40,671 bases of DNA, taken from a virus. The stretch covers positions 1-40,671 of IMG/VR virus record IMGVR_UViG_3300020578_000174. One strand, written 5' to 3'. Shown here in pieces: positions 9,366-37,981 of the stretch. Numbering within the stretch: the stretch's first letter is position 1; each line of letters begins with the position of its first letter. Below the pieces are notes generated by a model, which saw nothing but the letters and a program-made list of their open reading frames with translations, ran no database searches and was not told the DNA's origin. The translations under genes and the position numbers were made by a program.

Positions 9366-9417
9366 ATGCTGGCTCCTGTAGAGCGAGCATACATGGTGCG
9401 CGCTGTGAGCGCAATAA

Positions 9418-9500
9418 TCGTCGGGGCGGGACTTGAACCCGCACGCTCTCAGAGCGCCAGATCCTAAATCTGGTGCGTCTACCTGTTCCGCCACCCGACG
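9418..9500 (-). tRNA. tRNA-Leu (anticodon UAG)
   Basis: The minus strand folds as a class II tRNA of 83 nt without encoded CCA. It has a 7-bp acceptor (CGTCGGG/CCCGACG), a D arm with the GG of the loop, a 5-bp anticodon stem (CCAGA/TCTGG) with loop TTTAGGA and anticodon TAG, a long variable arm (CGCTC-TGA-GAGCG) and a T arm GCGGG-TTCAAGT-CCCGC. The discriminator is A, as in leucine tRNAs. It reads CUA and possibly other CUN codons, rare in GC-rich hosts. Confidence 0.96.
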
Positions 9501-9501
9501 A

Positions 9502-9574
9502 TGCCTCATGTCAGAATCGAACTGACGACCGCTCGCTTACAAGGCGAGTGCTCTGCCGACTGAGCTAACGAGGC
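9502..9574 (-). tRNA. tRNA-Thr (anticodon UGU)
   Basis: A 73-nt cloverleaf on the minus strand. The acceptor is GCCTCGT/ATGAGGC with one G-T pair, the D arm is GCTC/GAGC, and the anticodon stem is CTCGC/GCGAG with loop CTTGTAA and anticodon TGT. The T arm is GTCAG-TTCGATT-CTGAC and the discriminator is A. CCA is not encoded. One base separates it from the tRNA-Leu, so both likely mature from the leftward late transcript between the capsid gene and the neck genes. Confidence 0.96.
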
Positions 9575-9583
9575 GCGCCCGCC

Positions 9584-9655
9584 CTAGTCCAACCGCGATA
9601 CGCCCACCGCGATCAGGAAGGCGGCGAGCGCGTACATCAGCCAGGTCTCCGCCAT
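9584..9655 (-). CDS. 23-residue membrane microprotein, coupled to the capsid gene
   Basis: A 72-bp reading frame whose ATG overlaps the TGA of the major capsid gene (TGATG). It encodes a short polar start (MAETW), a hydrophobic helix LMYALAAFLIAVGV, and a short end SRLD. It fills the gap between the capsid gene and the tRNA-Thr. No independent ribosome binding site is seen, so expression would depend on termination-reinitiation at the abundant capsid message. The single transmembrane-like helix and the tight spacing support a real gene, but the length makes chance possible. Confidence 0.42.
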   Translation of the reverse strand: MAETWLMYALAAFLIAVGVSRLD

Positions 9656-10806
9656 CAGAACTGCGTGACGAGCGGGCTCTGGAAGCCCTCGTCCGTCTTG
9701 CTGCGGCGACGCCCGAGGTCCTCCTCGTCGGCGGGGAGCTTGGACGCGAACCCAAGCGTGGTGTTCTCCGGCGTGACGGAGCCCGAGTAGAGCTCCAACT
9801 TGACCACGCTGTTGAGGTTCAGGAAGGCCATGCCGATGTCCTCCCAGCACCAGAAGGTGATCTTGTTGCCGATCTTGTCCACGTAGAACTTGGTGTTGTT
9901 CAGCACGTAGAAGCAGCCGAGGAACTCGGGGGTGGTGAAGCCGTACATGTTCCCGCGACGGAGGATGTCCGTCTTGATCGTGCGCACGAAGCGGCGACCG
10001 AGGATCGTGTTGTACTTGTAGCCGTCCACGACGGTCTCAGACTGGATACGATCACCGAAGTCCTCGACGGTCCACTGAAGGATGTCGTCGTAATCGGACT
10101 CGGTGAGCAGCACCATGTCGAGGCGCACGCGGCGGTCAGGACCGGCCATCATCTTGAAGAAGTTGACGAAGTCGTTGCGCTGCACGGGGCGCACCACGAA
10201 GTCATCGGCGGTGGCGGCGAGCGCGCCGCTGCCCTTCATGACGGAGGCGTTCTGGTCGGGGCCGTTGGCGCGGCTGTTGGCGAGCACCGCGCTGCGGCTG
10301 AAGGCGCCGTGCGAGGCGAAGCGCTCGTTCGAGTCCTTCTGGAGCTGCTGGATGCCGGCCTCGGCGTAGATGAGGAACTGACGGTCCTCGATCTCCTGCA
10401 GGTTGTTGGCGGACTGCTCCTCGATCATCTTGGTGATCGGCATCTTGTACGCGAGGAGCTCCTGCTCCGTCTTCTCGAAGTGCTCGGACTCGATCGTGAA
10501 GAACGAGACCGCCACGCGAGGCGCACGGATGTAACGAGCGCGCGCAGAGCCGCGGAAGTCCACGACCATGGCGCGGCTCTCGGGCTCGAGCTCCTCGATC
10601 TTCACGAGACCGTCGTGCTCGGTCGACACCTGGCACTCGGCGGGAGTGACCGGCTGCGGGGGGAGGATCTTGCGAGCGAAGCTGACCTCGCGGAGGTGGT
10701 CACGAATCACGCCGCCGCCGTAGGCAGCGATCTTCTGACGACCCTCCTCCGTACCGAGCTTCTCCACGAAGAGGCTGTTCACCATCTCAGCGCTGTAAGC
10801 AGACAT
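9655..10806 (-). CDS. Major capsid protein (HK97-fold type)
   Basis: A 383-aa protein in the classical position just downstream of a decoration protein and the protease/scaffold region. The helical N-terminus (NSLFVEKLGTEEGRQKIAAY), the long spine-like helix followed by an A-domain-like sequence (KIGNKITFWCWEDIGMAFLN) and a final beta segment are typical of capsid proteins of large myoviruses. It has normal capsid-subunit length, no signal peptide and no membrane segment. AAGGA lies upstream of the ATG. The EKxA tetrapeptide found in nearby inner-virion proteins is absent here. Confidence is high for a structural role and good for capsid. Confidence 0.8.
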   Translation of the reverse strand: MSAYSAEMVNSLFVEKLGTEEGRQKIAAYGGGVIRDHLREVSFARKILPPQPVTPAECQVSTEHDGLVKIEELEPESRAMVVDFRGSARARYIRAPRVAVSFFTIESEHFEKTEQELLAYKMPITKMIEEQSANNLQEIEDRQFLIYAEAGIQQLQKDSNERFASHGAFSRSAVLANSRANGPDQNASVMKGSGALAATADDFVVRPVQRNDFVNFFKMMAGPDRRVRLDMVLLTESDYDDILQWTVEDFGDRIQSETVVDGYKYNTILGRRFVRTIKTDILRRGNMYGFTTPEFLGCFYVLNNTKFYVDKIGNKITFWCWEDIGMAFLNLNSVVKLELYSGSVTPENTTLGFASKLPADEEDLGRRRSKTDEGFQSPLVTQF

Positions 10807-16864: not shown

Positions 16865-16865
16865 G

Positions 16866-18224
16866 TTACTTCCTGTACGGGGCGGGCGCTGGGTTCTTGT
16901 TCTGGTCAAGCGCATGTCGGAGCCGCGCCTGCGCTAGGTCTGCACGCAGGACCGGCTGATTGCCCTGCGAGATGCCCCTCGCGCCCTGGTAGAGCGTGGC
17001 ATCCTGTGGCTGAACGCGATCGACCGCCTGTTGGAACGCCGTGGCCTGGCGCGCCTGCTCCACCGCATCGCTCACGCTATCGCGGTGACGGGCGTACGCG
17101 CGGTCTGCCTCGTAGCGCGCCTGGTCCGTAGCCTCGCGATCCCTAAACTGCGCGTTCTGGTTGGTCATCTTGTCTCTCTCCAAGCTCAGACGCTGCGAGT
17201 TGAACCGATTGGTGTCATGCAACTTCGTGCGCTCTAGCTGCAGACGCTCCATGTCAAACGCGTTGCGCGCGAGCGCGTCTTGGTGATGCCCGTACGACTT
17301 CGCTGCGTCGACCATGCCCTGCCCCATGAAGTTGGTGGCCGACTGGAAGGCTAGATCAAGAGGCCGCTGCCCACGTAGCCTGCTGATCTCGTTGAGCGCA
17401 GATACGTTCGCCATGCGGAACTGCGCCATCTGCTTTAGCGTCTGCCCGCCCAGCAGCGGATCCTGCAGCACATCAGGTGTGTGCTGCGCGATGCTATTGT
17501 ACGCGATGTGCAGATCCTGCTCCGACATACTGCGCATGTCGGGGTGCACCTTCTTCATCTCGGACAGATACTTGTCACGGTTAGCGCGAATCCGCGCAGC
17601 GCGGACCGCCTCAACTGCGGCGGGAACCCCATACGACATAGCCGCTGCGCCCAGCGCACCGACGATGGGTGTCCCAATCGCCTTAGCTGTGTCCCAGTCG
17701 AACGCGATCTTCTCAGTCGCGAGTGAATCCTCGACGCGCTGGAGCGCGTCTGCGATCTGCTCGTCGGTCAGGTTGTACGCGTATTGAATCTCGGCCTTCT
17801 TGTTCATCATCGAGCTCAACTCTCCGGTAGTGCGCGTGACGGCACCACCAATGCTTTGTGCGAGGACGTCTGACGGTGTTTGACCCGACATCTGCTCAAG
17901 TTGCCTCCCCTCGCGCAGGATCGTCATCGCGGGTTTGCCCTGCGACATCGCGTACAGCATCTCGCCGCCCACGTACGGATCCTTCGCGAATGTAGGCGCG
18001 TAGTCGAGCATCGCCCTGTACGCCCTACGTTTCTTGTCGTCGGGCACGTTGCGCAGTTCGGGGAACTCCTTCTCCATCGCGGCCATCTGCGCCTCCCGGC
18101 CCCTTGATATGAGATAGCGCCTCCCAGCGAAGATGCCGCGTGCGGCGCCGTACGCACCAACCGCCCCGGCCGCGCCGATTGCGGCGTTTCGCAGGACAGC
18201 CTTCCCAAAGTCGGCGGCTCCCAT
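16866..18224 (-). CDS. Inner-virion/ejection-type protein with an internal duplication
   Basis: A 452-aa protein. Residues about 10-125 and 180-300 are two copies of one unit. Each starts with a Gly/Ala helix (AAIGAAGAVGAYGAARG; IVGALGAAAMSYGVPAA), then a charged helix ending in FPELR or HPDMR, then a helix, then YAPTFAKDPYVGG or HTPDVLQDPLLGG, then an amphipathic helix. Residues 310-400 form a coiled coil rich in Arg, Gln and Asp, and the tail is Pro-rich. TEKIAFD lies between the copies. The gene is coupled to its upstream neighbour (TGATG). The hydrophobic helix next to a helical bundle fits phage proteins that are ejected with DNA, but this is inference. Confidence 0.6.
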   Translation of the reverse strand: MGAADFGKAVLRNAAIGAAGAVGAYGAARGIFAGRRYLISRGREAQMAAMEKEFPELRNVPDDKKRRAYRAMLDYAPTFAKDPYVGGEMLYAMSQGKPAMTILREGRQLEQMSGQTPSDVLAQSIGGAVTRTTGELSSMMNKKAEIQYAYNLTDEQIADALQRVEDSLATEKIAFDWDTAKAIGTPIVGALGAAAMSYGVPAAVEAVRAARIRANRDKYLSEMKKVHPDMRSMSEQDLHIAYNSIAQHTPDVLQDPLLGGQTLKQMAQFRMANVSALNEISRLRGQRPLDLAFQSATNFMGQGMVDAAKSYGHHQDALARNAFDMERLQLERTKLHDTNRFNSQRLSLERDKMTNQNAQFRDREATDQARYEADRAYARHRDSVSDAVEQARQATAFQQAVDRVQPQDATLYQGARGISQGNQPVLRADLAQARLRHALDQNKNPAPAPYRK

Positions 18225-19022: not shown

Positions 19023-19616
19023 TTGAGTAATGTTGAACTTGATTATGTGACGACACGCGACGCCGCGCAAGAGATAGGCGTCTCGCGCCGCACTCTCCAG
19101 CGTCACATTAAGAGCGGAAAGCTCAAAACGACGCAACGGCGCGGAAAGTGCGCGCTGATATCTCGGGCGGATCTAGCACGCTATGTACGAGACAGCGCCG
19201 CGCGCGGGCAGAGCCTGCGTGCGCGAGCGGACAGCGTAGACGACCGCGTGTCTGCGCTGGAGCAGCGGGTGCGTACCCTCGAGGCGCTGCTCGACATCAC
19301 GCCGGTGCGACGCGTCGTGCTGAGCGACGAGGATGTCGTCACATACAGAGAGCGGCTTCACAGTATACTTCACACGCGGAAGCGGTGGATGATCAGCGAC
19401 ATCTCCGCGCTGATCAGCGACGTCGGGCGCCTCTCGCCCGAGACTGTCTCCGCTGTGAGCGCCAAGCTGCTGCACGCCGCGATGGAGCGGTGCATCGTGG
19501 AGGCGCGTCTGCTGCGGCACTCACGCAGCGAGATCTACGCGGGCCGCGCGATCTTGATTATGCGCGAGCTTGGTGTGTCGTCTGAGGAAGCAGAACATCT
19601 GGCCTCGGATTGGTGA
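19023..19616 (+). CDS. HTH-domain DNA-binding protein, antisense to the late block
   Basis: About 197 aa, the first of two isolated rightward genes flanking the terminase. Residues about 9-55 read as a MerR/excisionase-type winged HTH: YVTTRDAAQEIGVSRRTLQR, then HIKSGKLK, then ALISRADLARYVRD. A coiled-coil stretch follows (SVDDRVSALEQRVRTLEALL) and a helical C-terminus. The start is uncertain: a TTG at 19023 with AGGTG upstream is the best placed; GTG 19047 is an alternative. Its 3' end overlaps the 3' end of the terminase gene by 59 bp on the opposite strand. A regulator of the late block or a terminase partner (small-subunit-like HTH) are both possible. Confidence 0.65.
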   Translation: MSNVELDYVTTRDAAQEIGVSRRTLQRHIKSGKLKTTQRRGKCALISRADLARYVRDSAARGQSLRARADSVDDRVSALEQRVRTLEALLDITPVRRVVLSDEDVVTYRERLHSILHTRKRWMISDISALISDVGRLSPETVSAVSAKLLHAAMERCIVEARLLRHSRSEIYAGRAILIMRELGVSSEEAEHLASDW

Positions 19617-21318
19617 GCGTGCTCACGAGGAACGCGTACAGGATCGCGTGGAACGTGTCGTCGGTGACGCCGCGGCTCTTCTTGAACTCGCTCATGCGCC
19701 GCGTCTCAGAGAACTCCGAGAAGATGTTGAGCATGTCCTGCGCGAACGGCTGCTCGAAATCCTCCCAGCGCGGGTAGGCGAACACGCCCTTCCGCTTGAT
19801 CGCGTTGAAGATGTCGCTCATCACCTCGGTGCGGTTCACCATGAAGCGCCCTAGCCCGCCGTCCCACACGATCTTGCCGCTCGACACTGTGCTGTACTGA
19901 TACTTGAACACCATGCGCGGACCAAACTTCCGCAGCAGCGCGTCGTTGCGGTCGAAGCCGCCGCCGTAGTCTGCGCCGATGAACGAGACGCGCCACTCCT
20001 TGACCAGCGCCTCGATCTTGGCGAGCTGCGCCTGCGGTTCGCTGTCTGGGCCCTCGAAGCGCCGCGCGTACACGATCGTGAACTTCCCATCGAGGTACGC
20101 TCCGATCACCGCGACGGTGTGGGTCTGCTCGCCTGTGCCCCAGTCCACACCCATAAAGACGCGCGCGCCGGAGCCGTGCAGAGCCGCCCGCGCGGCGCGT
20201 TGATCTGCGTCCGTCAGCCCGTAGCGCCACGTGCAGTTGTCGATCACGTCCTGCTGCGTAATCGGGCGCGTGCCGCTGTCGTACGATAGACCGAGCACCT
20301 CATTGTTGAACCGCGCGCGTGAGTAGGTGAGCTGCTTGTTCAGGATGTCCGACCAACCGATCCACGGCACCATCAGCTGCGGGACACGGTAGCCGTCCAT
20401 CGGGTTGGGTACGCGGGGGCGGGGGTTGAGCGACGCCCACTGCGCTTGGGCGTGCATCGCGTATATCTGCTTCCCGCACTTCTCGCAGATCAAGAAGCGC
20501 GGGCCGATGTTCGCCTCTGTGAGTATGTTCCAGTGCCGATAGTCGCCGCCCCCGCAGTGATCGCACGGGACGACCCACTCGTTCTGTGTGCTCTCGTCGA
20601 TCCACAGCCCCTCGATCGTGTTGTCGAGGGACTTCGGTGTGCCGCTGTACAGCTTGTACTTGAACGGGCTGTGCGCGATGCACTCCTCGATCACGGAGAT
20701 GTTGTCGGGCAGGATGTCCTGTATCTCGTCGATGCAGACTAGATCCGCCGCGATGCCGCGTGTTCGGTCAGCGTTCAGATACGCGTAGCGCAACACGATC
20801 TGCGAGCGGTTGATGAACTTCTTGTGAAACACGTTCTGGTTGAGCGCCGAATCCACCCACGCGCGCAGCTTCGGGCTGACGTCGAGCGGCTCTCTGATGC
20901 GGTCGTTGGAGAACGTCTTGGTCTGCTGGTTGGTGGGCGACACATACAGCGCGGTGAAGTTGGGCTGTATGCACGTCATGGCCAGCAGTCGGTTGCCGAG
21001 GTAGGTCGACTTCTCTACTTGGCGCCCGCACTTGAGCAGGACACGCGGCGACGTGGTGTCGTACACGGGCTTCAAGTAGCGGCGCTCGCCGAACGAGAAC
21101 GCCTTGAGCGACTTGGCCTGTTGGTCCGGGATCATGATCGCGAACTCGACGAAGTCCGTGGGGCGCACTTCTACATCGCCCGCGACGTGGTCCGTGACCT
21201 GCTCAGCTTTTACGCCGATCGCCTCTAGGCTAAAGTCGTCGTGCGACCGCGTCGGTCTACGCCGCGCGCTCTTATCAACCGCCGCGCGGTTGTGCGCGGT
21301 GTTTCTCACTATCGGCAT
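19558..21318 (-). CDS. terL: Terminase large subunit
   Basis: A 586-aa DNA-packaging motor. The ATPase part has a Walker A-like CGRQVEKS (97-104) and Walker B VCIDE (194-198), then a coupling-type SGTP motif. A Cys4 zinc ribbon follows (C252, C255, C278, C281), as in GpA-like terminases. The C-terminal RNase H-like nuclease has acidic residues in VDWGTGE (D392), GADYGGG (D450) and VTDDTFH (D553/D554). Length is normal. It pumps DNA through the portal into the procapsid. Both ends meet genes of the opposite strand (starts 21318 and 21328; overlapping 3' ends at 19558-19616), so it may be a separate transcription unit. No obvious Shine-Dalgarno is seen at the ATG. Confidence 0.92.
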   Translation of the reverse strand: MPIVRNTAHNRAAVDKSARRRPTRSHDDFSLEAIGVKAEQVTDHVAGDVEVRPTDFVEFAIMIPDQQAKSLKAFSFGERRYLKPVYDTTSPRVLLKCGRQVEKSTYLGNRLLAMTCIQPNFTALYVSPTNQQTKTFSNDRIREPLDVSPKLRAWVDSALNQNVFHKKFINRSQIVLRYAYLNADRTRGIAADLVCIDEIQDILPDNISVIEECIAHSPFKYKLYSGTPKSLDNTIEGLWIDESTQNEWVVPCDHCGGGDYRHWNILTEANIGPRFLICEKCGKQIYAMHAQAQWASLNPRPRVPNPMDGYRVPQLMVPWIGWSDILNKQLTYSRARFNNEVLGLSYDSGTRPITQQDVIDNCTWRYGLTDADQRAARAALHGSGARVFMGVDWGTGEQTHTVAVIGAYLDGKFTIVYARRFEGPDSEPQAQLAKIEALVKEWRVSFIGADYGGGFDRNDALLRKFGPRMVFKYQYSTVSSGKIVWDGGLGRFMVNRTEVMSDIFNAIKRKGVFAYPRWEDFEQPFAQDMLNIFSEFSETRRMSEFKKSRGVTDDTFHAILYAFLVSTLTNPRPDVLLPQTTHQARA

Positions 21319-24902: not shown

Positions 24903-26204
24903 TTACCTCACTTTGGTGTCGATCGTGAGCACTTCGTCTTGGGAGAGTAGCACCTGCGGGGGCGCTGGGGGTAGCAGGTACGGGGAGATCGCTTGTGTAT
25001 ATGACGTGAGCTGAGCCGTCACCGCGCCGCCGACAGCTACGTTGATCGCGCCGAGGAGGGCGCTCAGCGCCGTGAACGCCGACGTGATCGCTTGGAGCTG
25101 CGCGACCATCTCGGCCTGCGAAGGTGCGCCGCCGTCCTCTGGGCCGCCAAACGGCCCCAATGTCATACCAGCGGGCGTCGCGTGTGTGTGCGTAAAGAGC
25201 CACGGCAGCAGCTCGATGTTGACGACGCGACGGCTCTCGTCCGTGTTGTCAGACGTGAGGAGCGGGACACCGTTGTGGACAAGTCGGAGTGACGGTCCTG
25301 AGACACTCGCGCCAGCCGGCGAGACGACCTCAACGCCACCGGCGGCGGTCACGCTGACCCCACCGAGCGCGCCGTTCAGGCTGAGGCTCGGTGCAGCGAT
25401 CCCCACGCCAACCGTGGACGACAGCAGCATCGCGCCGATGCTCTCCTGAGTCCATGTGCCAGCGGACGAGAGCTCGACGTCTCCGTCGTTGGTCACGTTG
25501 AAGTGAAACCCCGCGCTCGCGTCGACGAGGTTGACGAAGGCGCTGTTGGGCGCTCCGCGCGCTGAGCCCGCGCGTGAGAGCGTCACGTTGAGCCCGCCCG
25601 CCGCCGCAGCGCCAGCGGTGACAGTCAGGTACGGCGCCGCGTCACTCGCGAACTCCTTGACGCCGAACAGATACGCGACAGGGCCCCCGAGGTCGTCCGC
25701 GGAGACGACCCACTTGAGCGACCCGCCGCCGAGGTTGTGCTCGTAGCTCGCCGAGTTCAGCCGCACCAGCTCCTCCGTGCTGAGCAGCGCGAGCATCGTC
25801 TGCTGATCCGACACCAGGTACACATCGCCGTTCCCCCGAAGCAGGAGGTCGTTCCCGTTAGTACCTTGCACACGCATATCTCCCGGCGTGAGCTCGGCGC
25901 GGCTCGCGCGGGATTCCGAGTCGAGGCTGCGGAAGCCGATCACGATGGGGCGCGCTGACGCGCCAGATGGGCTCGTCGATAGGCTCTCCACCAAGACACA
26001 CTGCGCGCCGACCGTCGCCTTGAAGTCCACCCCGCCGAGCCCCTTGGTCTTGAACGTCGACGCGACCTCGCAGCGCTCTATGACGCGTTGATACGGCGAT
26101 GTGATCACGACGTCGAGCAGCCCCGTCTCCGTGTCGACGCGGATGACGCGACCGGAGAGGATATTGGCGGTGACAAGCGTTGAGGCTGGGGCGCGAAGCT
26201 CCAT
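24903..26204 (-). CDS. Baseplate central spike protein (gpV/gp5-like)
   Basis: A 433-aa protein. The N-terminus looks like an OB-fold (ILSGRVIRVDTETGLLDVVI). The middle is a repetitive beta-helix-like region with many short strands (VGVGIAAPSLSLNGALGGVS). Near residue 338 is THTHATPAGM, the His-x-His tip motif that binds iron in the spike tips of phages such as P2. A helical C-terminal part follows the tip motif, which is unusual since the tip normally ends the protein. The gene is coupled to the RNA polymerase by a TGATG overlap, tying polymerase expression to the tail module. The spike pierces the host envelope. Confidence 0.75.
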   Translation of the reverse strand: MELRAPASTLVTANILSGRVIRVDTETGLLDVVITSPYQRVIERCEVASTFKTKGLGGVDFKATVGAQCVLVESLSTSPSGASARPIVIGFRSLDSESRASRAELTPGDMRVQGTNGNDLLLRGNGDVYLVSDQQTMLALLSTEELVRLNSASYEHNLGGGSLKWVVSADDLGGPVAYLFGVKEFASDAAPYLTVTAGAAAAGGLNVTLSRAGSARGAPNSAFVNLVDASAGFHFNVTNDGDVELSSAGTWTQESIGAMLLSSTVGVGIAAPSLSLNGALGGVSVTAAGGVEVVSPAGASVSGPSLRLVHNGVPLLTSDNTDESRRVVNIELLPWLFTHTHATPAGMTLGPFGGPEDGGAPSQAEMVAQLQAITSAFTALSALLGAINVAVGGAVTAQLTSYTQAISPYLLPPAPPQVLLSQDEVLTIDTKVR

Positions 26205-29200
26205 CAGTACGTCCCATCCGCGCCGGTGCGGCCAAACTCAGCGCCGATCGCGAGACCAGGCAGCGGGTTGGTGCCGTGCAGGTTCGACTTCGCGCCGTAG
26301 TTCATGCCGTCTATGAGCGCCTTTCGAACATGCTGGTAGTTGAGCTGCGCGAGGAAGTCACCTTCCGCTGCGACGCGCACCGCTTGGTTGATGTTCAGCA
26401 GCACAGGCTTGACCTTGATCGGTGGCTGCTTCGCAGCAGTGCGCTTGTCGTTGATGCGCCGCACCTGTGACTCGGTCATGTGCTCACCAGGGATCTCCTC
26501 GTTGAGCGGGTCGTCCTCCACCTCCACGGTGCCCGTGAGGTTCTTGAGCACCATCTCCACGTGACGCCTGCGCACACCGTACTCACCGTACACCTTGTGC
26601 ATCTCGTCCAGCAGATATCCTCGCACAGCACCCATGCCCGCGTAATCCAAGAGCTCATGCGGGTTGACCGGACCGCTGGAGATGGGCGCACCGGGCTCCA
26701 CGGTGTCGCCCACCTTGACGCGCACCTCTCGATCCGACGGCACGCGCAGCTCTGCACCAGTGCTCAGCTTCACGATTGACCCGCCCGCGATAGTGTCAGG
26801 TGTAATGGACGCCACGGTGGCTTTCTCGGGCGCGAGCGTGGCAGAGCCGCGAAGCACCTGCGGGATATTGAAGAGGCGCGCTAAATGATCGAACTGACTA
26901 CCGATCTGCGCCCCGGCGCCCGACGCGGACCCGCCGGTGTGGAACGCGCGCATCACCATCTGCGTGAGCGGCTCTGAGAGCGACTGCGCGGAGTTCACGC
27001 CTGCGTTCTCCCCGATCTGGTATGTGCCGCCGCGCTCGTTGAAGCCAGCGCACTTCTTGCAGACGCCTCTCGGCGCTCTACAGGTCATCGGACTGCGGAC
27101 CAATACGGACGTGTGATGCTTCCTGAGCAGCTTGAGCGTCGCGCCGTCGATCAGCGTGGCAGGCTTGAGCTTCGTCGTGTCGCAGACCACCTCTTGCGCG
27201 GTGTAGCGACCCTCCGCGTCCGCCTCCGATGTGTTGATCGGAACACCGCGCGTCGTGCCGCAGTCGTCCATGCTCACCACCGTGCTGATGGAGAGGTTGA
27301 TCAGATCTTTCGCCTTCGCGCCGGGCTCGCTCGTCCCCTTGACGCGCGCTAGCGTACCCGTGCGGATACCGGGGATGCTGTCCCAGAAGTCTGCGACGCC
27401 GAGCCCCTCGCTGTACGACCTGCGCACCGGATCAGGTACGACGTTGCCGTCCCCGTCCATCACCTGCAGCGGCGACACGAGGATCTGCTCGACCTGGTTG
27501 TACTTACCGCCGAGCGCCCCGCTCTGCTTCGTCATGCGCCACGCGCGGTTGGGGTTCGCCGCGAGGCGCTCCGCGAGCTCCTTGCGGATCGCGGCGGACG
27601 CGACGCCGTACTCGCGCACCTTGTCGGAGTCGGTCACGCTCTTCATCTTCGCGAGCCGAGCGTCGGCCTCCGCGAGATGTTTGTCACGGATGTCGCGGTG
27701 CGCCACGAAGTCATCGAGGCCGTAGCTCCAAGCCTTCTCATGCGCGTACTTGTTCCCGAGATCCTTCCAGTCGTCCACCATGTTGGGGTACAGGTCGGGG
27801 CGCTCCTTCGCGACGCGCGTGAGCACGGTGGTCATACGCTTCTTGTCGAGCTCGGGGCCGAACAGCAGCTCGTTGCCGAGGTCATTGTTCTTGTACTCGG
27901 TGGGCAGCGCGTCGAACAGCATCATGCGCCCGACGGTAGTGCGCTTGCCCTTGTACTCAAACACGTCTCCGATGTCGAGCTCGCCCGCCTTGTGCTTCAC
28001 GTAGGCCTCGGCGGGTGACGTGAACTTCAGCTCGGTCTGACGCGCGAACTCCGTGAGTTGCCAGATGCCGTACGCCGCGTCCCACTCAGGCGTGTTCATG
28101 ACCTGGAAGCCCTTCGCGCCGAACAGATTTTTGCTCGGCAGCATGCGCTTGGCCTCCTCGCGCGCCTCGTCGGACGACGGCACCCACACGCCCATCGTGT
28201 CGCCGTCGAAGTCGGCGTTGAAGCCGCCGCAGACGAGCGGGTGGATCTGAATCGACTTGCCCTCCACGATCTTCGGGTAGAACGCCAGCACGCTGTGCTT
28301 GTGCAGCGCGGGGTCTCGCTTCAGCAGCAGCGGGCGCTCCTGCACAGCCTGCTCAAGCGCTGTGCGGATCGCAGGGGCGAGCGGGTCCTCCTGATAGAGC
28401 TTCGCCGCGGAGAGCGTCGTGTAGCCCTGCATACGCAGGTTGCGGATGATGAACGGTCGGTACACGTTCATCGCCATCTTCCGTGGCAACCCCACCTGGT
28501 CTAGGCGCAGCTCGGGCTCGGGCGTGATCACCGAGCGCCCGCTGAGGTCGGAGCGGCGCTTGATGAGCTTCGACTGGAAGAAGCCCTCCTTGCCCTGCTT
28601 GTGCCCGCCCCCGCCCTCCTTAGGTTGCACAGCCGACTGTAGTAGGGAGTTCATCGGCGAGCCCTTGTTGTCCAACGCGCCGTCGACGAACGCCTCGCGC
28701 ACCTTGTTGTACAACTTGTACACAGCGCCCATCTTGTCCTCGGGTAGCGCCTCGGCGGGCACCTGCGAGAGCAGCTCGTTCGCCATGCCGACGCCCTTAT
28801 ACAGCTGGTTGATGTCCACAGTGTCGATGTCGCCCATCGCGCCCGCGTCCGCGGAGAGCGCGATGGGGCGCATACGCGGCGGGAGCACCGGCATGTAGCG
28901 CATCGTGTACGCGTCATGCGCGCTGATGCCGAGACGCTTGAGGTTGTTGAGCAGCTTGATCTTCTTGTAGCAGATGTCGCGGTCTGTCTTGCGGGCGGTC
29001 TTCAGCCGCTCCGTGACCGCTGCGAGCTCGCGCTCGACGTTCATGCCCTTTAGCGCCTTGACCACATCGGACATGCCCTGCCCGCCTGGGAACTCAATCT
29101 GACCGGCGAGCAGCTCCGATGACTTGCTGACCGGCACATCGAGCAGCGTCGCCACCGCGCTCTCGAACACCGGGTTGATGATAGGCGTGGCGAGCTTGAT

Positions 29201-32200
29201 GTGCCCCCACCGCAGGCTGTCACGCTCGCCCTCAGGGAAGTCGAAGAGCCCGCCCTTCTCGATCGCGGCGTCCTTGCCGCGTATCATGCGGTTCGGCTTG
29301 CTCACCGCGTGCGGACACTGCCTCAACACGTCTGCGTCCGTCATCGGCACGAGCTGGTACTCGTCCCCGTTCTTCACGGGGTCTACGCCCATCGCCTTGA
29401 GATAGCTAAAGAACTTGCGCGTCGTGAATGTCGGCTTGGCGCTCGGGAGCGGCAGCCCCTGCATGAGCGCGTTCCAGTAGTCGTCCGAATCGTACTCCCC
29501 GGGCCGCTGTGCGGTCTCGTAGGTCGAGTGGTGCGTCTGCAGATCGCGCATGAACGCGCGGGCGTTGTGTCCGAGCAGCGCGTACATGCCGAGCGCGCCC
29601 ATAGACTGCCCGCCGCTCGGCGCGCCGGAGACAGGCTGGTTGTTGATGTCGTACTTGTAACCCGACTGCCCAGGCAGCACGCCACCTGGTCGTGACGTCA
29701 TCTTCTTGTCCACCTGGTGGGTCAGCTTGTACATGTACTGCTTGCCGGAGATGATCGACCCGAGGGCCTTGCTCGTCTTCGGGTCGTAGGCGACATCTTG
29801 GTCAGACAACCCGAGCGACTTCATCTCGCTGATCAGCTCGCGCATGCGGTCTTCTGACTTGCGGTCGAAGTTGTTCACGACATACGTCTTGCCCGTCTTC
29901 TCAGCGATCTTCGTCGCGCCGAGCTCCATGAGCTGACCGATGTTGATGCGACCCGGCATGCCCGCCGGGTGAAGCGCGACCTCGAGGTGGACGCGATTGC
30001 CTGTCTCGTCCGTGCCGACAAACGGCATCTCGTGGTCCTCTAGCACCTTCGTGATGATCCCCTTATTGCCGTACCGCCCGGTGATCTTGTCGCCGATCTT
30101 CATCGGCTCCTGCGTGCGGACATATACGCGCACCATCTTCCCTGTCTTGACCACGCGGGAGACGACCCCCACGCTGTCCTTCTCCCATGACTCCTCCGCG
30201 CCGCGCCACGCGGACTTGATCTTCGTCGTGCGCATCAGCGTTGCGCGCGTAGGGTCGTTGTCGACCTTGCGGCACGCCGCGATCAGGATCATCCCCTCAC
30301 GGACCTCCTCGCCCTCCTTGATCACGCCGTCCGCGTCAAGCGCCTCGAAGTTCTCGTAGTTGTGCACGGATCGCGGACACATGACACGGAACAGGTCTTT
30401 GGAGACGACCGTGACGTTGTCCTCCTGCTTGTCGAGCAGCGCGGGGGACAGCTTGGTCCCTGCTGCGATCGCGTTGTCCTTCTCGAACGTGTACATGTGC
30501 TCGCTCGTGAGCTTCGTGGCGGCCGAGCGCGAGATCACGACGCCGTCCTCGTAGTTGTAGCCGCGCATCGGAATATAGCCGATACGCAGGTTCACGCCGA
30601 GGGCGAGCGTACCGTCCTTGGTGTAGTTCGTGTCGGCCAGCACCTGCCCCTTGCGGACGGTGTCCCCCGCGACGACAAGCGGCTGGTGATGCAGCACAGC
30701 TTTGGGGTCGTTCGTTGGATAGTTGTTGTACAGCTCAAACTTGGCGATCTTGTTGTCTACTCCCCGCACGTGTATCTCGTCGGCGGTCACCTTGACGACG
30801 GTGCCGTCGATTGGCGAGGGGAGGCAGTTGACGCGCCCAACCGAGCTCTCCATCGTGTTACCGGGCTCGTTCTCCTTAGCGATCTGGACGAGCGGCGCCT
30901 CTCGGTTCGTCAGCGACACCGCCTGGTTGGCCATCTTGGTCCCGATCATGATGCGGTTGCCGTTGTTGTTATTCAGGAACGGCATCATGTTGGTCCCAAG
31001 CCCGAACTGCTCCTGCGAGAGCGCCATCACATAGTGGCACTCCGCAAGCGGGACAGCCTTGGTGCCGCCGCGTGGCATGGACGCTCGCACGAGCGGCTTG
31101 AGCGCCTTCGGCTTGCCCGCCACGAACTCTACATCGTCCGGATATGCCACGACGCTCTGGTCGGCGGTGAGCGGGTCCACCTCCACGAACTCACCCTTCT
31201 TCATGTCGTACATACGCGCGTGGAGGCGGTCGTCTTTCTTGCCCGCGCCAAGCGCCATGAGGAGCATCAGCCCTGTTGAGTCTTTCTCGCCCGTGTCGAC
31301 GGGGTCTAGGAAACCGACGTGGCTCGAGTGCGCGTGCTGCGCCGCGCCTAACTGCATGCCGGGCCCTGTGCTGATACCGCCCATGCCCTTCACGGTCGTC
31401 ATTCGGTAGTTTGTCATCGTCGCGAGCGGGTTGGTCATATCCGCCTCGTTGACGAGCTGCGTCTCACCGCCCTGCTTGAAGAACGACGTGATGTTGCGCG
31501 CTAGCGCGTTGAACGCGACATCCACGGACGTGCTGTCTGGGCGCATGCGGTTCTTGACGCGCTGCTGAATCTCGTACGACGAGCGCATTAAGAAGTCATG
31601 CAGCAGCTCACCCGGCGACATGAGCCGCTTGTGCCCGATGTTGTTGTAAGACGTCGCCTGCACCTCGCCCTTGCTCACACGGACGAGCTGCTGACCAGCG
31701 TCGATCAAGCAGTCGGGCGTCAGCGCTGTGTGCGCCCGACCTAGCACGTCGTTGGTGATGCGCGGGTCCATCGTGTACGTGCCGAGCTGCTGAAAGATGA
31801 AGGTCGCGGCGTCCCGCGCGGTGGAGATCATCGTGTCGCCCTTCACCATCTTGCGCGCGATCGCGATGACCGCCGCGTCACGGGCGATGTCCTTCTTCTT
31901 GGCGCGGTTGGCGTCGACGAGCGGCTTCCCCCACGCGGCAGCGATCTGCTCGTCGGTCTTACCCGCCGCCGACAGCAGGTCGTAGAGGCTGATCGCGGAG
32001 TCGCTCCCACGGACGGGCTTGATCGTGATCTGATATGTGAGCGGGTCGAACTTCATCTTGAGCTGCCCGAGCCGCTCGTTCGCAGCGACAGCCTCGATCT
32101 CGCCGCGGTCGGAGATGCGCGTGTACACACCCGACATACGGCGGAACTGGTGCTGTATCTGGTACTCCCGACCGCCGACGATGTACGTGAGGCGCTGCGT

Positions 32201-32494
32201 CATGTGCGGCAGAGACGCCACGACCACTTTGCCCTTGTGCAGCGTCTTGCCCGCGAGGTCCTTGAGCTCCGCCTCCGCGTAGACCTTGATCGCCCACGTG
32301 CCGCCCGCCTCCTTGACCGCGCGCTGCTGGGCGAACGCCACCGCGCTCGCGCCCTGCTCGAACGTCACGTTGTGAATCAGCAGCTGTCGGTGCGAGCTCT
32401 GCAGCCCGTTCAGCAGGTCGCGCACCGCCTTGACGACCTGCGTCTTCATCTCGTTGAAGCCCTCTACCGGGCTGAAGCTCCCTGTGACCGACAT
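26204..32494 (-). CDS. Single-chain DNA-directed RNA polymerase, fused beta and beta' subunits
   Basis: A 2096-aa multisubunit-type polymerase in one chain. Beta features: YIVGGREYQI...FRRMSGVY (105-124), NIGHKRLMSPGELL (285-298), a rifampicin-pocket-like region (346-370), NNNNGNRIMIGTKMANQAV (508-526), GYNYEDG (645-651) and GDKITGRYGNKG (801-812). Beta' features: PVLPPRMRPIAL (1202-1213), RRSDLSGRSVITP (1313-1325), the catalytic NADFDGD (1426-1432), a zinc site C1745/C1805/C1812/C1815, and the trigger-loop/bridge region with SEPLTQMVMRAFHTGG (1840-1855). The junction is near 1060-1085, where the beta' N-terminal zinc domain is missing. E. coli beta plus beta' total about 2750 aa. The ATG has GAGGAG upstream. 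Being in the virion block, it may be packaged. Confidence 0.95.
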   Translation of the reverse strand: MSVTGSFSPVEGFNEMKTQVVKAVRDLLNGLQSSHRQLLIHNVTFEQGASAVAFAQQRAVKEAGGTWAIKVYAEAELKDLAGKTLHKGKVVVASLPHMTQRLTYIVGGREYQIQHQFRRMSGVYTRISDRGEIEAVAANERLGQLKMKFDPLTYQITIKPVRGSDSAISLYDLLSAAGKTDEQIAAAWGKPLVDANRAKKKDIARDAAVIAIARKMVKGDTMISTARDAATFIFQQLGTYTMDPRITNDVLGRAHTALTPDCLIDAGQQLVRVSKGEVQATSYNNIGHKRLMSPGELLHDFLMRSSYEIQQRVKNRMRPDSTSVDVAFNALARNITSFFKQGGETQLVNEADMTNPLATMTNYRMTTVKGMGGISTGPGMQLGAAQHAHSSHVGFLDPVDTGEKDSTGLMLLMALGAGKKDDRLHARMYDMKKGEFVEVDPLTADQSVVAYPDDVEFVAGKPKALKPLVRASMPRGGTKAVPLAECHYVMALSQEQFGLGTNMMPFLNNNNGNRIMIGTKMANQAVSLTNREAPLVQIAKENEPGNTMESSVGRVNCLPSPIDGTVVKVTADEIHVRGVDNKIAKFELYNNYPTNDPKAVLHHQPLVVAGDTVRKGQVLADTNYTKDGTLALGVNLRIGYIPMRGYNYEDGVVISRSAATKLTSEHMYTFEKDNAIAAGTKLSPALLDKQEDNVTVVSKDLFRVMCPRSVHNYENFEALDADGVIKEGEEVREGMILIAACRKVDNDPTRATLMRTTKIKSAWRGAEESWEKDSVGVVSRVVKTGKMVRVYVRTQEPMKIGDKITGRYGNKGIITKVLEDHEMPFVGTDETGNRVHLEVALHPAGMPGRINIGQLMELGATKIAEKTGKTYVVNNFDRKSEDRMRELISEMKSLGLSDQDVAYDPKTSKALGSIISGKQYMYKLTHQVDKKMTSRPGGVLPGQSGYKYDINNQPVSGAPSGGQSMGALGMYALLGHNARAFMRDLQTHHSTYETAQRPGEYDSDDYWNALMQGLPLPSAKPTFTTRKFFSYLKAMGVDPVKNGDEYQLVPMTDADVLRQCPHAVSKPNRMIRGKDAAIEKGGLFDFPEGERDSLRWGHIKLATPIINPVFESAVATLLDVPVSKSSELLAGQIEFPGGQGMSDVVKALKGMNVERELAAVTERLKTARKTDRDICYKKIKLLNNLKRLGISAHDAYTMRYMPVLPPRMRPIALSADAGAMGDIDTVDINQLYKGVGMANELLSQVPAEALPEDKMGAVYKLYNKVREAFVDGALDNKGSPMNSLLQSAVQPKEGGGGHKQGKEGFFQSKLIKRRSDLSGRSVITPEPELRLDQVGLPRKMAMNVYRPFIIRNLRMQGYTTLSAAKLYQEDPLAPAIRTALEQAVQERPLLLKRDPALHKHSVLAFYPKIVEGKSIQIHPLVCGGFNADFDGDTMGVWVPSSDEAREEAKRMLPSKNLFGAKGFQVMNTPEWDAAYGIWQLTEFARQTELKFTSPAEAYVKHKAGELDIGDVFEYKGKRTTVGRMMLFDALPTEYKNNDLGNELLFGPELDKKRMTTVLTRVAKERPDLYPNMVDDWKDLGNKYAHEKAWSYGLDDFVAHRDIRDKHLAEADARLAKMKSVTDSDKVREYGVASAAIRKELAERLAANPNRAWRMTKQSGALGGKYNQVEQILVSPLQVMDGDGNVVPDPVRRSYSEGLGVADFWDSIPGIRTGTLARVKGTSEPGAKAKDLINLSISTVVSMDDCGTTRGVPINTSEADAEGRYTAQEVVCDTTKLKPATLIDGATLKLLRKHHTSVLVRSPMTCRAPRGVCKKCAGFNERGGTYQIGENAGVNSAQSLSEPLTQMVMRAFHTGGSASGAGAQIGSQFDHLARLFNIPQVLRGSATLAPEKATVASITPDTIAGGSIVKLSTGAELRVPSDREVRVKVGDTVEPGAPISSGPVNPHELLDYAGMGAVRGYLLDEMHKVYGEYGVRRRHVEMVLKNLTGTVEVEDDPLNEEIPGEHMTESQVRRINDKRTAAKQPPIKVKPVLLNINQAVRVAAEGDFLAQLNYQHVRKALIDGMNYGAKSNLHGTNPLPGLAIGAEFGRTGADGTY

Positions 32495-32527
32495 GTGCCG
32501 CTCCTCAAAACAGGTGTGGTTCGCGTG

Positions 32528-32556
32528 ATAACTATATACACCCTCACGCGCGTCAA
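32528..32556 (-). promoter_or_regulatory. Candidate promoter for the RNA polymerase gene
   Basis: On the minus strand TTGACG (32556-32551) is followed after 17 bases by AGTTAT (32533-32528), inside a TATATAGTTAT tract. This resembles a housekeeping sigma-factor promoter with a weak -10. Predicted initiation near 32520 would give a leader of about 25 nt containing the GAGGAG ribosome site of the polymerase. Confidence 0.38.
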
Positions 32557-32645: not shown

Positions 32646-32695
32646 TGCGCGGCGGTATAGTGGCGTGTTGCCCAGACAAACCGCCGCGCATTTTA
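32646..32695 (+). terminator. Perfect 10-bp stem followed by TTTT
   Basis: TGCGCGGCGG (32646-32655) pairs perfectly with CCGCCGCGCA (32681-32690), and TTTTA follows on the plus strand. The 25-nt loop is longer than usual and contains TATAGT. As a terminator it would end a short rightward RNA starting near 32540, or stop readthrough ahead of the zinc-ribbon genes. A protein or polymerase binding site is an alternative. Confidence 0.4.
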
Positions 32696-32752
32696 GGTGT
32701 CAAACGGGCGGCGGACTGAGTGATAACAGGGCGCACGACACAGGAGGTGCCT

Positions 32753-32917
32753 ATGTCTCGTGACGCGATCACATTCGTCTACAGCGCGGTCGCCGGCTTC
32801 CTCGGCGCGGTCGCGTACCTCATCACACAGGAGATCAAGTATGCCGAAGCGCAGCAGCGCCGACGTGCTGAGGACGCTCGTGCCACTTACTACGCGAACC
32901 AGCAGCGCGACGGGTGA
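32753..32917 (+). CDS. Small membrane-anchored protein, 54 aa
   Basis: Starts at ATG 32753 with AGGAGG five bases upstream. Residues 7-24 form one hydrophobic helix (TFVYSAVAGFLGAVAYLI), followed by a charged Arg/Gln/Ala-rich helix. This is a typical single-pass topology with a cytoplasmic helical tail, possibly coiled. First gene of the short rightward cluster that diverges from the RNA polymerase. Its 3' part overlaps the next gene in another frame. Function unknown; a host-membrane protein is likely. Confidence 0.7.
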   Translation: MSRDAITFVYSAVAGFLGAVAYLITQEIKYAEAQQRRRAEDARATYYANQQRDG

Positions 32918-33137
32918 GAGCCCGCCGACGTCGCCCTGTGCGGTGTCCCCGAGCGGCGCATGTCGCTCAGTCGCGTGTGCGCGTTGCACATTCACGCCGC
33001 CCGGCGTATGGGCGTGTCTGCCCTGCGTGTCCGCGTTGGACACATTCGTCCACGTCCTGCCGTATCACGGCGACGCACCATGTCACTTCTGCGGCGCGTC
33101 GCCGCTCCTGACCTTGAGGGTGAGCTATGCAACATAA
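32841..33137 (+). CDS. Overlapping zinc-ribbon protein, 98 aa
   Basis: The ATG at 32841 lies inside the preceding 54-aa gene, in another frame, with AGGAG seven bases upstream. The protein has a polar Ser/Thr-rich start, then C46-x2-C49, nine residues, C59-x2-C62, and later C81-x2-C84-G, a clear zinc-ribbon pattern. It overlaps the next gene by 11 bp. It is the only open frame on either strand with such motifs in the 33,000 region, and without it about 210 bp would be unexplained. Overlap with the 54-aa gene is 77 bp. Real coding is likely but the first 30 residues are constrained by the overlap. Function unknown. Confidence 0.6.
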   Translation: MPKRSSADVLRTLVPLTTRTSSATGESPPTSPCAVSPSGACRSVACARCTFTPPGVWACLPCVSALDTFVHVLPYHGDAPCHFCGASPLLTLRVSYAT

Positions 33138-33624
33138 AGCCGAATCTGAGTGTATCCGCTGCGGCGAAGACCTGGCGGAGACGTACCGCGTCGAGCGCGT
33201 GGAGCGGGACGTGTTCGTCATCAACGCGGTCAGCGCGGAGTGGCAGAGGGGCCCACGCGTGTTCCCCGAGAGCATCGTCACCCGCTCTCACCAGCTCGTG
33301 CTGTGTGATGACTGCTTCGGCAAGGAGTACACGCGGGCGAAGCGGGCGTGTACCGCGTGGCCACGCCGTTGCAATATCTGCGCGGCCGACCTCGATGATG
33401 ACAACACCTACTTCTTCCGCATCACGCTGACCGAGTTGATGCCGTTCGGAGGCGAGGGGGACGAGATCATCCTCGAAGAGCGGGTACCCCCGCACGCGCT
33501 GACACCCGACGTGTTCATCTGCACCACCTGCACGGAGGAGCACGTCGGGTTCGCCAACGCGTGCTTCATCGCTGACATTGATGTCGACGATGACGACGAC
33601 GACGAGATCGTGACGCGCACCTAG
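33127..33624 (+). CDS. Tandem zinc-ribbon protein with acidic tail, 165 aa
   Basis: Two zinc ribbons of the same layout: C9-x2-C12 with C60-x2-C63, and C82-x2-C85 with C132-x2-C135. The loop between Cys pairs is 47 residues in the first and 46 in the second, so this is an internal duplication. The protein ends with an acidic run of Asp and Glu before IVTRT. Such folds bind nucleic acid or RNA polymerase. The stop shares its CTAG with the stop of the portal gene on the other strand. Its location next to the polymerase makes a transcription role attractive but unproven. Confidence 0.75.
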   Translation: MQHKAESECIRCGEDLAETYRVERVERDVFVINAVSAEWQRGPRVFPESIVTRSHQLVLCDDCFGKEYTRAKRACTAWPRRCNICAADLDDDNTYFFRITLTELMPFGGEGDEIILEERVPPHALTPDVFICTTCTEEHVGFANACFIADIDVDDDDDDEIVTRT

Positions 33625-35684
33625 TAACCGACCTTGCGCGCGGGCGTCGCGCGTGACGGCTTCTGCTGCGCCATCGGGTTGGTCATCGGGTTGAGCGGGT
33701 TGCTCTGGTCGCCCTTACGCCCGTTGATTATATTAGCTACGATCTGATGCAGCTGCGGGTTAGCGGTGGACATCTGCTGTAGCTGTTGCTGTTGTCTATC
33801 GGGCGGCAGGCTCATGATATAGGTGGCCGCTCGTTTAGCGACATACGTGATGTCCAGGTTCGACGCCGTCGCCACACCCTGCCTCCCGTCAGCCTGCCAC
33901 GGCGGTACGCCGGTCTGCGGCGCTTGACGACCGTTCCTAGAGTACGCCGTGGCGCCTTGTGGGAATCCAGGCGCTACGCTCTCGCCGGTCAGCGCGCCGT
34001 TCGGGAGCGCGCCGTTGGAGCGCACGCTCTGGTTGGTCTGCGCCGCCATCATGGTCTGCTGCTGCTGTTGCTGCTCCGCTTCCTGCTCCTGCTGCAGCTT
34101 CGCTTGAAGCTTCTGCGATTCAGCCTGACCGCGCACCTGTTGGAGCTGCGACTGCCCCTGGTAACGCGTGTTGATGTCCATGATGTCGCCCTGGATATGC
34201 GCCTGCTGAACCTGCATGCGGCGCTGCAGCTCCAGCATCATGCCACGCTCCTCGTCCATCTTGCGGCGCTCGATCTCGGGGTCGAAGCCGAGGTCCTCGA
34301 GCAGCGTGCGCTCCGACAGCTTCTGCGCTTGCGCTAGCTGGAAGTACAACATCGTGCGCTGCATGTCGTCCGCCATCTTGAACGGGCGGAAGTCGCCGTC
34401 GATGTCTGGGTAGCCCATGAAGGCCGCGATCTTGCCAAGGACGAAATCGAACACGAGCTCACGCTGGTCGTCGATATAGCCGAGGAACTTGTTGTGGAGC
34501 TGGAACATCGTCAGGTTCGTACCGCTGAACTGTATCCCGCCGAACACGAACTCGGGCGGGACACCCATGCCGGCGATGATGTGCTCCATCCACACCCTGT
34601 ACTCTTGGTGCAGGATCAGCGCGCGACCGTCTCCGCCTATTGTCTGCACGCCGAGGGGCATGGGCATAACAGGGATGCGGTTCGGGTCCAGCTTCCACTG
34701 CGAGAGCTGCTTGGTGACCTCCTGCTTCCAGTCCTGCAGGTTGACCATGCTGTAAGGGTCGGACGTAGCTGTGCCCGCCTGCGGGAACACGATCCGCAAC
34801 GGCACGATGTGCTCCTGCGCGATCGCCTCCTGGCTCCTGCGCAGAACGCCAAGATAGTGCAGGTCCTTCAGCACGGGCATGATGAGCGGCGTGCCCCAGC
34901 CCATAGACTTCTGCGCCAAGGTGGGGCGACGGAAGTGATACAGGTTGTCACGACTCAGAACGATCTTCTTCTGTGTCTGCACCGCGCGGATGAACACGTC
35001 GGGGAGGTCCTCAACACGGTGCTTCTTGCCCATGCGGATGTCGTTCTGCACATCGGGGGCCACATCGTAGAAGTACTCCGTCTTGCCTGTGATATCGTCG
35101 TGCGTGATGTCGATGCGCTCCGGGTCCCACCGTATCACCTTGATGTCACGCACGCTACGCAGGTACTGATCTCGCACCTTGGCGAAGCCGACGAAGCCGC
35201 AATTCGCGCACGTGAGCTGATACTTTTGGCCCACCCACTTGTACTTGGTGTTCTTCGCCTTAATGTCATGCGTGTGTTTGCACTGCGAGCACGAGAGGAA
35301 CTTTCGGAACGGGAACATGACGGAGACAAACGCGTTACCGTAAGTGTAGTAGTCCAGGCCCATCTCGACGCGCAGCGACTTTAGGTTGATGTGCTGCGCG
35401 ATGCGCGTGTACTTCTTCCGCAGGACGTCGTTGTCGGTCTTGAATGTGACGGGCGTGACGGGGTACTCCGCCATCTTGGTTACGGCTGCGTTCACCGCTG
35501 GATTGGTGAGGAAGTAGTATCTACACCAGTGGAACATGTTCTTGACCGACGTGGGCAGGTACGCCTGCCCCTGGTCGAAGAACGGATGTGGGTACTTCGG
35601 CGCGTTGAACGCGCGCGCGTTGTCCGCGCCGGTCGTTGCGCTGTACTGCGTACCGCGCCCGCCGTATCCAAGTGGCCTGCTCAT
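33621..35684 (-). CDS. Portal protein with inserted zinc ribbon
   Basis: A 687-aa protein. The N-terminal half has typical portal stretches (FFLTNPAVNAAVTKMAEYPV-like helix near 58-77; LDYYTYGNAFVSVMF). A zinc ribbon (C132, C135, C159, C162) is inserted after the early beta region. The core contains MGWGTPLIMPVLKDL and GVPPEFVFGG, typical of portal clip/wing segments in large myoviruses. The C-terminal 200 residues are Gln-rich and helical, as in portal barrels, ending in a Pro/Asn-rich tail. It forms the dodecameric DNA gateway that binds the terminase. The ATG overlaps the upstream stop (ATGA). Confidence 0.85.
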   Translation of the reverse strand: MSRPLGYGGRGTQYSATTGADNARAFNAPKYPHPFFDQGQAYLPTSVKNMFHWCRYYFLTNPAVNAAVTKMAEYPVTPVTFKTDNDVLRKKYTRIAQHINLKSLRVEMGLDYYTYGNAFVSVMFPFRKFLSCSQCKHTHDIKAKNTKYKWVGQKYQLTCANCGFVGFAKVRDQYLRSVRDIKVIRWDPERIDITHDDITGKTEYFYDVAPDVQNDIRMGKKHRVEDLPDVFIRAVQTQKKIVLSRDNLYHFRRPTLAQKSMGWGTPLIMPVLKDLHYLGVLRRSQEAIAQEHIVPLRIVFPQAGTATSDPYSMVNLQDWKQEVTKQLSQWKLDPNRIPVMPMPLGVQTIGGDGRALILHQEYRVWMEHIIAGMGVPPEFVFGGIQFSGTNLTMFQLHNKFLGYIDDQRELVFDFVLGKIAAFMGYPDIDGDFRPFKMADDMQRTMLYFQLAQAQKLSERTLLEDLGFDPEIERRKMDEERGMMLELQRRMQVQQAHIQGDIMDINTRYQGQSQLQQVRGQAESQKLQAKLQQEQEAEQQQQQQTMMAAQTNQSVRSNGALPNGALTGESVAPGFPQGATAYSRNGRQAPQTGVPPWQADGRQGVATASNLDITYVAKRAATYIMSLPPDRQQQQLQQMSTANPQLHQIVANIINGRKGDQSNPLNPMTNPMAQQKPSRATPARKVGY

Positions 35685-37964: not shown

Positions 37965-37981
37965 GTGATAATAGCATACCC
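37965..37981 (-). promoter_or_regulatory. AT-rich promoter-like element in a divergent gap
   Basis: The minus strand has TATTAT (37973-37968) and the plus strand GATAAT (37967-37972), five of six matches to a -10 box in each direction, between the 253-aa gene and the rightward operon at 38003. It shares TCG(C/T)GTGATAA with the element upstream of the RNA polymerase (32522-32531). No clear -35 is visible, so a phage-specific promoter is possible. Confidence 0.35.

Follow-up and report, generated by a model that had tools for sequence, protein, structure and literature searches.

A single-chain beta-beta' RNA polymerase encoded in a phage structural gene block

How would a tailed phage use an RNA polymerase (RNAP) whose beta and beta' subunits are joined in one polypeptide? 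The question is raised by a virus record of 40,671 bases, IMGVR_UViG_3300020578_000174, a genome fragment that we analysed over its full length (hereafter the window). Its largest open reading frame (ORF), at 26204-32494 on the minus strand, begins with ATG and encodes 2096 amino acids (aa). We propose, at a probability of roughly two in three, that the product is a single-chain core enzyme that works with a dedicated phage sigma factor and is probably carried in the virion. A preliminary description of the window had named one beta-beta' polypeptide within a phage structural gene block without giving a strand; the single 2096-aa frame on the minus strand, the order of its Pfam domains and the structural genes around it bear this out.

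The single-chain gene and its product

The gene and its landmarks are as follows.

26204-32494, minus: single-chain beta-beta' RNAP gene (ORF, Pfam and PDB searches; orthologues at loci L003, L004, L008 and L009)
32501-32506, minus: GAGGAG, ribosome-binding-site-like, six bases upstream of the RNAP ATG
29360-32494, minus: beta half, residues 1-1045; predicted fold matches bacterial beta
30059-30094, minus: beta motif GDKITGRYGNKG, residues 801-812; K803 and K811 correspond to E. coli K1065 and K1073
26207-29359, minus: beta' half, residues 1046-2096; predicted fold matches bacterial beta'
29207-29242, minus: junction residues 1085-1096, site of the absent beta' N-terminal zinc-binding domain (alignment)
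28199-28219, minus: catalytic NADFDGD with D1428, D1430 and D1432 (alignment with bacterial beta')
27050-27262, minus: second beta' zinc site, C1745, C1805, C1812 and C1815 (E. coli C814, C888, C895 and C898)
26912-26986, minus: N-terminal part of the trigger loop, H1852 corresponding to E. coli H936; no SI3 insertion

Pfam profiles of both the RpoB and the RpoC type matched the chain in order, a check that the preliminary description had proposed. The beta families (RNA_pol_Rpb2_6, 4e-47, residues 564-938, and Rpb2_3) are followed by the beta' families (Rpb1_1; Rpb1_2, 4e-32, residues 1313-1451; Rpb1_5, 3e-19, residues 1697-1863), with Rpb2_3 and Rpb1_1 giving weaker matches, and a PDB sequence search matched bacterial beta' (E down to 4e-101). 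The catalytic NADFDGD, placed at exactly this position in the preliminary description, occupies residues 1426-1432. A stop or frameshift between the halves, which that description had named as grounds for abandoning the fusion, was not found: the intact frame is carried by L003, a full-length fusion from another sample that is 84% identical to the window RNAP, and by L004, likewise from another sample, where the gene is ended by the contig end. These two loci exclude a stop or frameshift lost in one assembly, and the recurrence of the unbroken frame in many independent contigs rules out a sequencing error or an assembly fusion.

Besides the catalytic aspartates, K803, K811 and H1852, the chain conserves R514, E649, D650, R849, H926 and R1393; the E. 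coli equivalents retained are K1065, K1073, R678, E813, D814, R1106 and H1237 of beta and R425 and H936 of beta'. It thus has what defines a two-barrel RNAP, namely the double-psi-barrel domains of both beta and beta', the DxDGD motif and a pair of basic residues. The earlier statement that the protein stays close to bacterial sequence holds in that beta and beta' are recognisable, but the identity to bacterial RpoB is only 26-28% and to bacterial RpoC only 29-31%. Similarly, the arithmetic behind a chain 650 aa shorter than E. coli beta plus beta' is correct, but much of the difference consists of E. coli-lineage insertions, SI3 included, that the chain lacks in the alignment, and compared with Staphylococcus-type beta plus beta' it is about 300 aa shorter. 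Judged from the alignments, the genuine losses are specific: the N-terminal zinc-binding domain of beta' (E. coli 57-100, with C70, C72, C85 and C88), the beta flap tip (E. coli 888-902 has no aligned counterpart in the chain) and a portion of the beta lobe. Residues 1-33 of E. coli beta' have no counterpart in the alignment either, and the rifampicin pocket is changed, with E. coli Q513, H526, R529 and S531 aligning with N, N, M and T, from which the enzyme would be expected to be insensitive to the drug.

Structure prediction, another check proposed earlier, gave the expected folds. AlphaFold models of each half, built from 31 aligned members, had a mean predicted local distance difference test score (pLDDT) of 80.8 for the beta half and 83.4 for the beta' half. 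In Foldseek the former matched bacterial beta with template modelling scores (TM-scores) by query of 0.71-0.76 (E to 3e-69) and the latter matched bacterial beta' with scores up to 0.87 (E to 2e-62). The overall fold predicted for both halves is therefore bacterial-like.

Natural beta-beta' fusions in the same order as the phage chain are the RpoBC proteins of Helicobacter and Wolbachia and the RNAP of yeast linear plasmids. The fused RpoBC proteins are ordinary host enzymes that work with alpha and omega, and neither they nor the yeast plasmid enzyme are phage enzymes of this clade. Recent capture of a host rpoBC of this type would account for the order of the halves, but we regard it as very improbable, because all sampled bacteria (a sample without Helicobacter or Wolbachia) group apart from all phage sequences with full support, with a best bacterial identity of about 30%, and because the fusion is common to diverse phage relatives. 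The same identity values and trees, in a phylogenetic check that had also been suggested beforehand, rule out a recent host gene among the bacteria sampled.

Probable sigma partners and place in the virion

Relatives of the gene were collected in three IMG/VR scans and from annotated phage records and were sorted ORF by ORF; some keep beta and beta' in a single chain and others split it. As the preliminary description had stated, searches of the 40-kb fragment found no alpha, omega or sigma gene. Alpha (Pfam RNA_pol_L) was likewise found in none of 55 related contigs (30 + 25) and omega (Pfam RNA_pol_Rpb6) in none of 30, while control searches matched in 13-14 of 14 cellular genomes. Sigma region 2 (PF04542) was present in 17 of the 30 contigs, which are of mixed architecture, and in 4 of the 25 further contigs, all single-chain. 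Among weak region-4 matches was a conserved family of about 245 aa, A7, with Pfam Sigma70_r3 and Sigma70_r4 matches. A profile of this family gave strong matches in 23 of 29 single-chain contigs besides the window (E 1e-39 to 1e-117), and it also matched 18 of 26 other contigs, among them those of Salmonella phage Arash (gp10, 3e-43) and Vibrio phage D69. The A7 profile overturned the view, suggested by the 4/25 count, that most single-chain phages have no sigma. Standard Sigma70_r2 searches mostly miss this divergent family of RNAP-encoding phages, whose members include those at L256, L257, L258, L260 and L261 and Arash gp10 at L272 (5893-6597). Two points had escaped the preliminary description: the fusion characterises a large and probably ancestral group, and it usually occurs together with a dedicated sigma family.

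Arash and D69 encode homologous RNAPs with about 30% identity to the window chain (Arash gp206 and gp216; PMC10585845), adjoining a portal gene, with a sigma of the same family and neither alpha nor omega; they differ in having the C-terminal part of beta' (beta'C) as a separate gene. Mass spectrometry of purified Arash virions recorded 3516 spectra and 128 peptides for gp206 (beta plus the N-terminal part of beta', beta'N) at 100% coverage, the highest spectra count of any virion protein, together with 1210 spectra for gp216 (beta'C) and 467 spectra, at 100% coverage, for sigma gp10 (PMC10585845). A second, canonical Arash sigma, gp196, is not mentioned in the text of that paper. In both the window and Arash the RNAP gene comes just after the portal gene, and one RNAP per genome was found in 20 of 20 genomes tested, which argues that no separate virion RNAP exists.

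From the Arash virion proteins, the single RNAP per genome and the portal neighbourhood we infer a virion-carried holoenzyme. The gene would encode a catalytically complete and active two-barrel core of cellular type, with beta and beta' in one chain, and this linkage would make the alpha assembly platform and omega unnecessary. Promoters would be recognised by a phage-encoded, divergent sigma that partners the core and lies elsewhere in these genomes, outside the 40-kb fragment. Polymerase and sigma would probably be packaged in the virion as in Arash and delivered with the DNA, and phage transcription could then start at early promoters independently of host RNAP.

Several points weigh against this proposal. 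Ribonucleotide reductase is among the 116 proteins of the Arash virion proteome, and the authors themselves consider carry-over from infected cells possible (PMC10585845). Virion presence has been reported for the Arash homologues only (PMC10585845), and the single-chain members are known as environmental phage contigs. Family A7 has no match in the window, itself a 40-kb fragment, and 6 of the 29 single-chain contigs have no strong match (three of about 100 kb, one of 131 kb with another sigma and two of 160-174 kb). Moreover, the flap-tip segment, to which sigma region 4 attaches in bacterial enzymes, fails to align, so the contact with sigma must differ.

The polymerase might instead be made during infection for middle or late genes and be absent from the particle. 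Its gene lies within the structural block behind its own promoter-like element, and phage RNAPs with such a role are found in phiKZ, AR9 and P23-45 (PMC7598289, PMC10770324). We nevertheless consider this doubtful, since the strongest virion signal in Arash comes from the homologous proteins, accompanied by a sigma that belongs to the co-conserved family, and since only one RNAP is encoded per genome. A hybrid enzyme that borrows alpha, omega or sigma from the host is unlikely in our view: the bacterial-like fold and the missing alpha and omega genes would suit it, but a dedicated phage sigma family co-occurs with the core, the beta-beta' linkage makes the assembly platform needless, and the flap tip and zinc-binding domain are absent.

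If true, a phage core and sigma acting alone would give a two-protein holoenzyme of bacterial type, which would be among the simplest sigma-dependent RNAPs and would offer a direct way to ask what alpha and omega do. With many natural variants at hand and one split relative in culture, the question can be put to the test.

Split relatives and known enzyme classes

Three architectures were distinguished; the counts come from pattern-based scans, include some near-duplicates and are lower bounds, not frequencies in nature. Type I, with the whole of beta-beta' in one ORF, was found at at least 75 loci, about 70 sequences once identical ones were removed; the 70 complete ORFs measure 2016-3033 aa from stop to stop (median 2124.5). 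In type II (at least 21 loci, including Arash and D69) one gene covers beta and beta' to just past the catalytic motif and beta'C is separate. In type III (at least 44 loci) the first gene contains beta and reaches about 80 positions into the beta' profile, followed by the rest of beta'N and then by beta'C, the last seen where the contig reaches that far.

At each of the 42 complete type III loci, the last part of the beta gene is a motif from the N terminus of beta', G-L/M-F/Y-D...W-x-H-Y/I-x-L, whose bacterial counterpart in the alignment is DGLF...RMGHIELA. The beta' segment at the end of each of these genes indicates that the split enzymes have a fused ancestor. Furthermore, the beta-beta' fusion is common to types I, II and III and an unbroken beta' is common to type I and bacteria, so that the simplest ancestor would be a single chain. 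FastTree and IQ-TREE both unite types II and III in a single derived clade (support 0.998 and 100, respectively) that excludes type I, and on the FastTree topology a type I ancestor requires 2 changes under parsimony, any other ancestor 4. The two programs place type I differently, and a firm root for the phage tree was not upheld: several single-chain groups are basal in FastTree, whereas IQ-TREE gathers the majority of single-chain sequences into one clade (support 96) and leaves the divergent L240, L241 and L246 outside it with a support of only 53, which makes the tree alone compatible with type I as a sister clade. The shape of the trees is by itself no proof of ancestry, and it is the characters that carry the argument. 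A single chain as the ancestor of split phage enzymes such as that of Arash is thus likely, if not proven, on the sequence characters. The fuller proposal, in which successive breaks in beta' produced the splits and the holoenzyme would be the chain plus a dedicated sigma, loaded into the virion and entirely independent of host subunits, seems to us evenly poised. For this group the usual story would be reversed, the split phage enzymes being pieces of a fused ancestor, which would explain why Arash gp206, annotated only as "beta", already holds beta' through the catalytic motif and thus half of that subunit.

The chain might also be a precursor from which cleavage, perhaps by the phage prohead protease, releases beta and beta' to give a two-subunit working enzyme. 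The window has a gene for a likely head maturation protease and relatives use split subunits, but their breaks lie within beta' and not at the beta/beta' boundary, and hence mimic no cleaved product; we judge such processing quite improbable.

The preliminary description compared the enzyme with the phiKZ and AR9 groups, which was incomplete, as it omitted nearer phage enzymes: those of Arash and D69 and those of the multi-subunit-RNAP-encoding Caudovirales (mReC; Weinheimer and Aylward 2020, PMC7481178). The mReC enzymes resemble the window chain in being cellular-like beta/beta' in tailed-phage contigs, with NADxDGD, placed outside bacteria and encoded beside structural genes (PMC7481178). 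They differ in that PMC7481178 treats beta and beta' as subunits, and in that the terminase large subunit (TerL) and major capsid protein (MCP) of the window fall short of the Pfam families named there (TerL PF03237, MCP PF07068). In the window, TerL matched PF03237 below the cut-off and GpA_ATPase above it; the MCP, which lacks a Pfam match, has relatives among the head-region ORFs of contigs with split enzymes. The window lineage fits the mReC RNAPs, the clade identity being drawn from these features and not from a comparison of the mReC sequences themselves.

With phiKZ and AR9 the group shares a phage two-barrel RNAP without alpha and omega; in phiKZ and AR9 one set is in the virion (PMC7598289). 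Their enzymes consist of 4-5 polypeptides, each genome encodes two sets and no sigma gene can be recognised (PMC7598289), whereas the window group has one chain, one set and, in relatives, a sigma, which rules out membership of this type. Single polypeptides with both double-psi barrels are also known from crAss-like phage phi14:2 (gp66), P23-45 (gp96/gp64), YonO and QDE-1, and some of these are virion enzymes (PMC10770324). Those proteins lack a readily recognisable beta/beta' sequence and many domains (PMC10770324); the window chain, in contrast, has Pfam beta and beta' matches and a near-full bacterial-type domain set, and membership of this group is ruled out too. From the bacterial core the window chain differs in the missing beta' N-terminal zinc-binding domain and flap-tip helix, and its relatives differ in having no alpha or omega gene.

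The enzyme class is therefore known (mReC, PMC7481178), the window enzyme being of the same kind by sequence and placement. A term search of the main text of PMC7481178 found no description of a fused chain of this group, a sigma, an alpha or the split series, and no fused phage RNAP of this type was found in the literature searched, in which subscription papers and preprints were incompletely covered; PMC10770324 refers briefly, with no particulars, to "derivatives with fused DPBB domains" within the multisubunit clade. Apparently new, in that they were not found in these sources, are a single-chain member with a near-full domain set, the split series, a sigma conserved alongside the core and the absence of alpha and omega.

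Neighbouring genes, promoter-like elements and variants

The surroundings of the gene contain the following features.

33621-35684, minus: portal protein gene upstream of the RNAP gene (matches the Arash portal gp204 ORF, 2e-81)
32693-33043, minus: candidate small ORF of 116 aa between portal and RNAP genes (Arash has small gene gp205 there)
19558-21318, minus: TerL
14657-16915, minus: likely head maturation protease
9655-10806, minus: major head protein
902-4318, minus: tail sheath protein
32525-32538, minus: promoter-like TATATAGTTATCAC, 31-44 bases ahead of the RNAP ATG
32720-32727, minus: second element, GTTATCAC, with similarly placed counterparts in L003, L004, L008 and L009

The tail sheath gene indicates a contractile-tailed phage. 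A helicase role for the downstream gene at 24903-26204, considered by analogy with Arash gp217, was rejected as no family matched. Genes for tRNA-Leu(tag) and tRNA-Thr(tgt) lie back to back at 9417-9574 in the structural block; the former overlaps the start of the ORF at 8844-9509, whose true start may be further in.

The core TTATCAC of TATATAGTTATCAC occurs at the same place in L003, L004, L008 and L009, loci of 40-59% GC content. A third TTATCAC (37965-37971), close to where the structural operon begins, has counterparts in L004 and L009, and more copies occur at comparable intergenic positions. With up to 3 mismatches, the long form was observed once in the window against 0.22 expected; as this count is little above chance, the promoter case rests on conservation, and elements of this type are possible, putative promoters.

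Several relatives carry unusual RNAP genes. Two further type I loci, L214 (10175-15946) and L234 (9902-15973), have in-frame TGA codons at tryptophan positions of the RNAP and are read in one frame each if TGA means tryptophan, which suggests that these phages probably read it so. In L024 (9974-17890), L013 and L203 (81-7862) an insertion of about 480 aa lies at the catalytic motif, in L024 immediately after DFDGD; it matches Intein_splicing and LAGLIDADG_3 and is an intein in the polymerase active site. The beta part is in two pieces around inserted DNA in L007 (2638-10677) and L025 (7533-17905), and in L007 (D181) a gene with a homing endonuclease annotation lies in that inserted DNA. The separate beta'C genes at L023 (14834-18166), L072 (15182-18394) and L235 (15921-19646) carry roughly 400-600 additional aa at their C termini, and lineage-specific insertions in the beta half were seen at L070, L072, L075, L211, L218, L219, L238, L248 and L250. 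Finally, some RNAP-bearing "phage" records were rejected as bacterial contamination and used solely as bacterial references; L090-L093, from the phage collection, are bacterial chromosome contigs with rpoB and rpoC.

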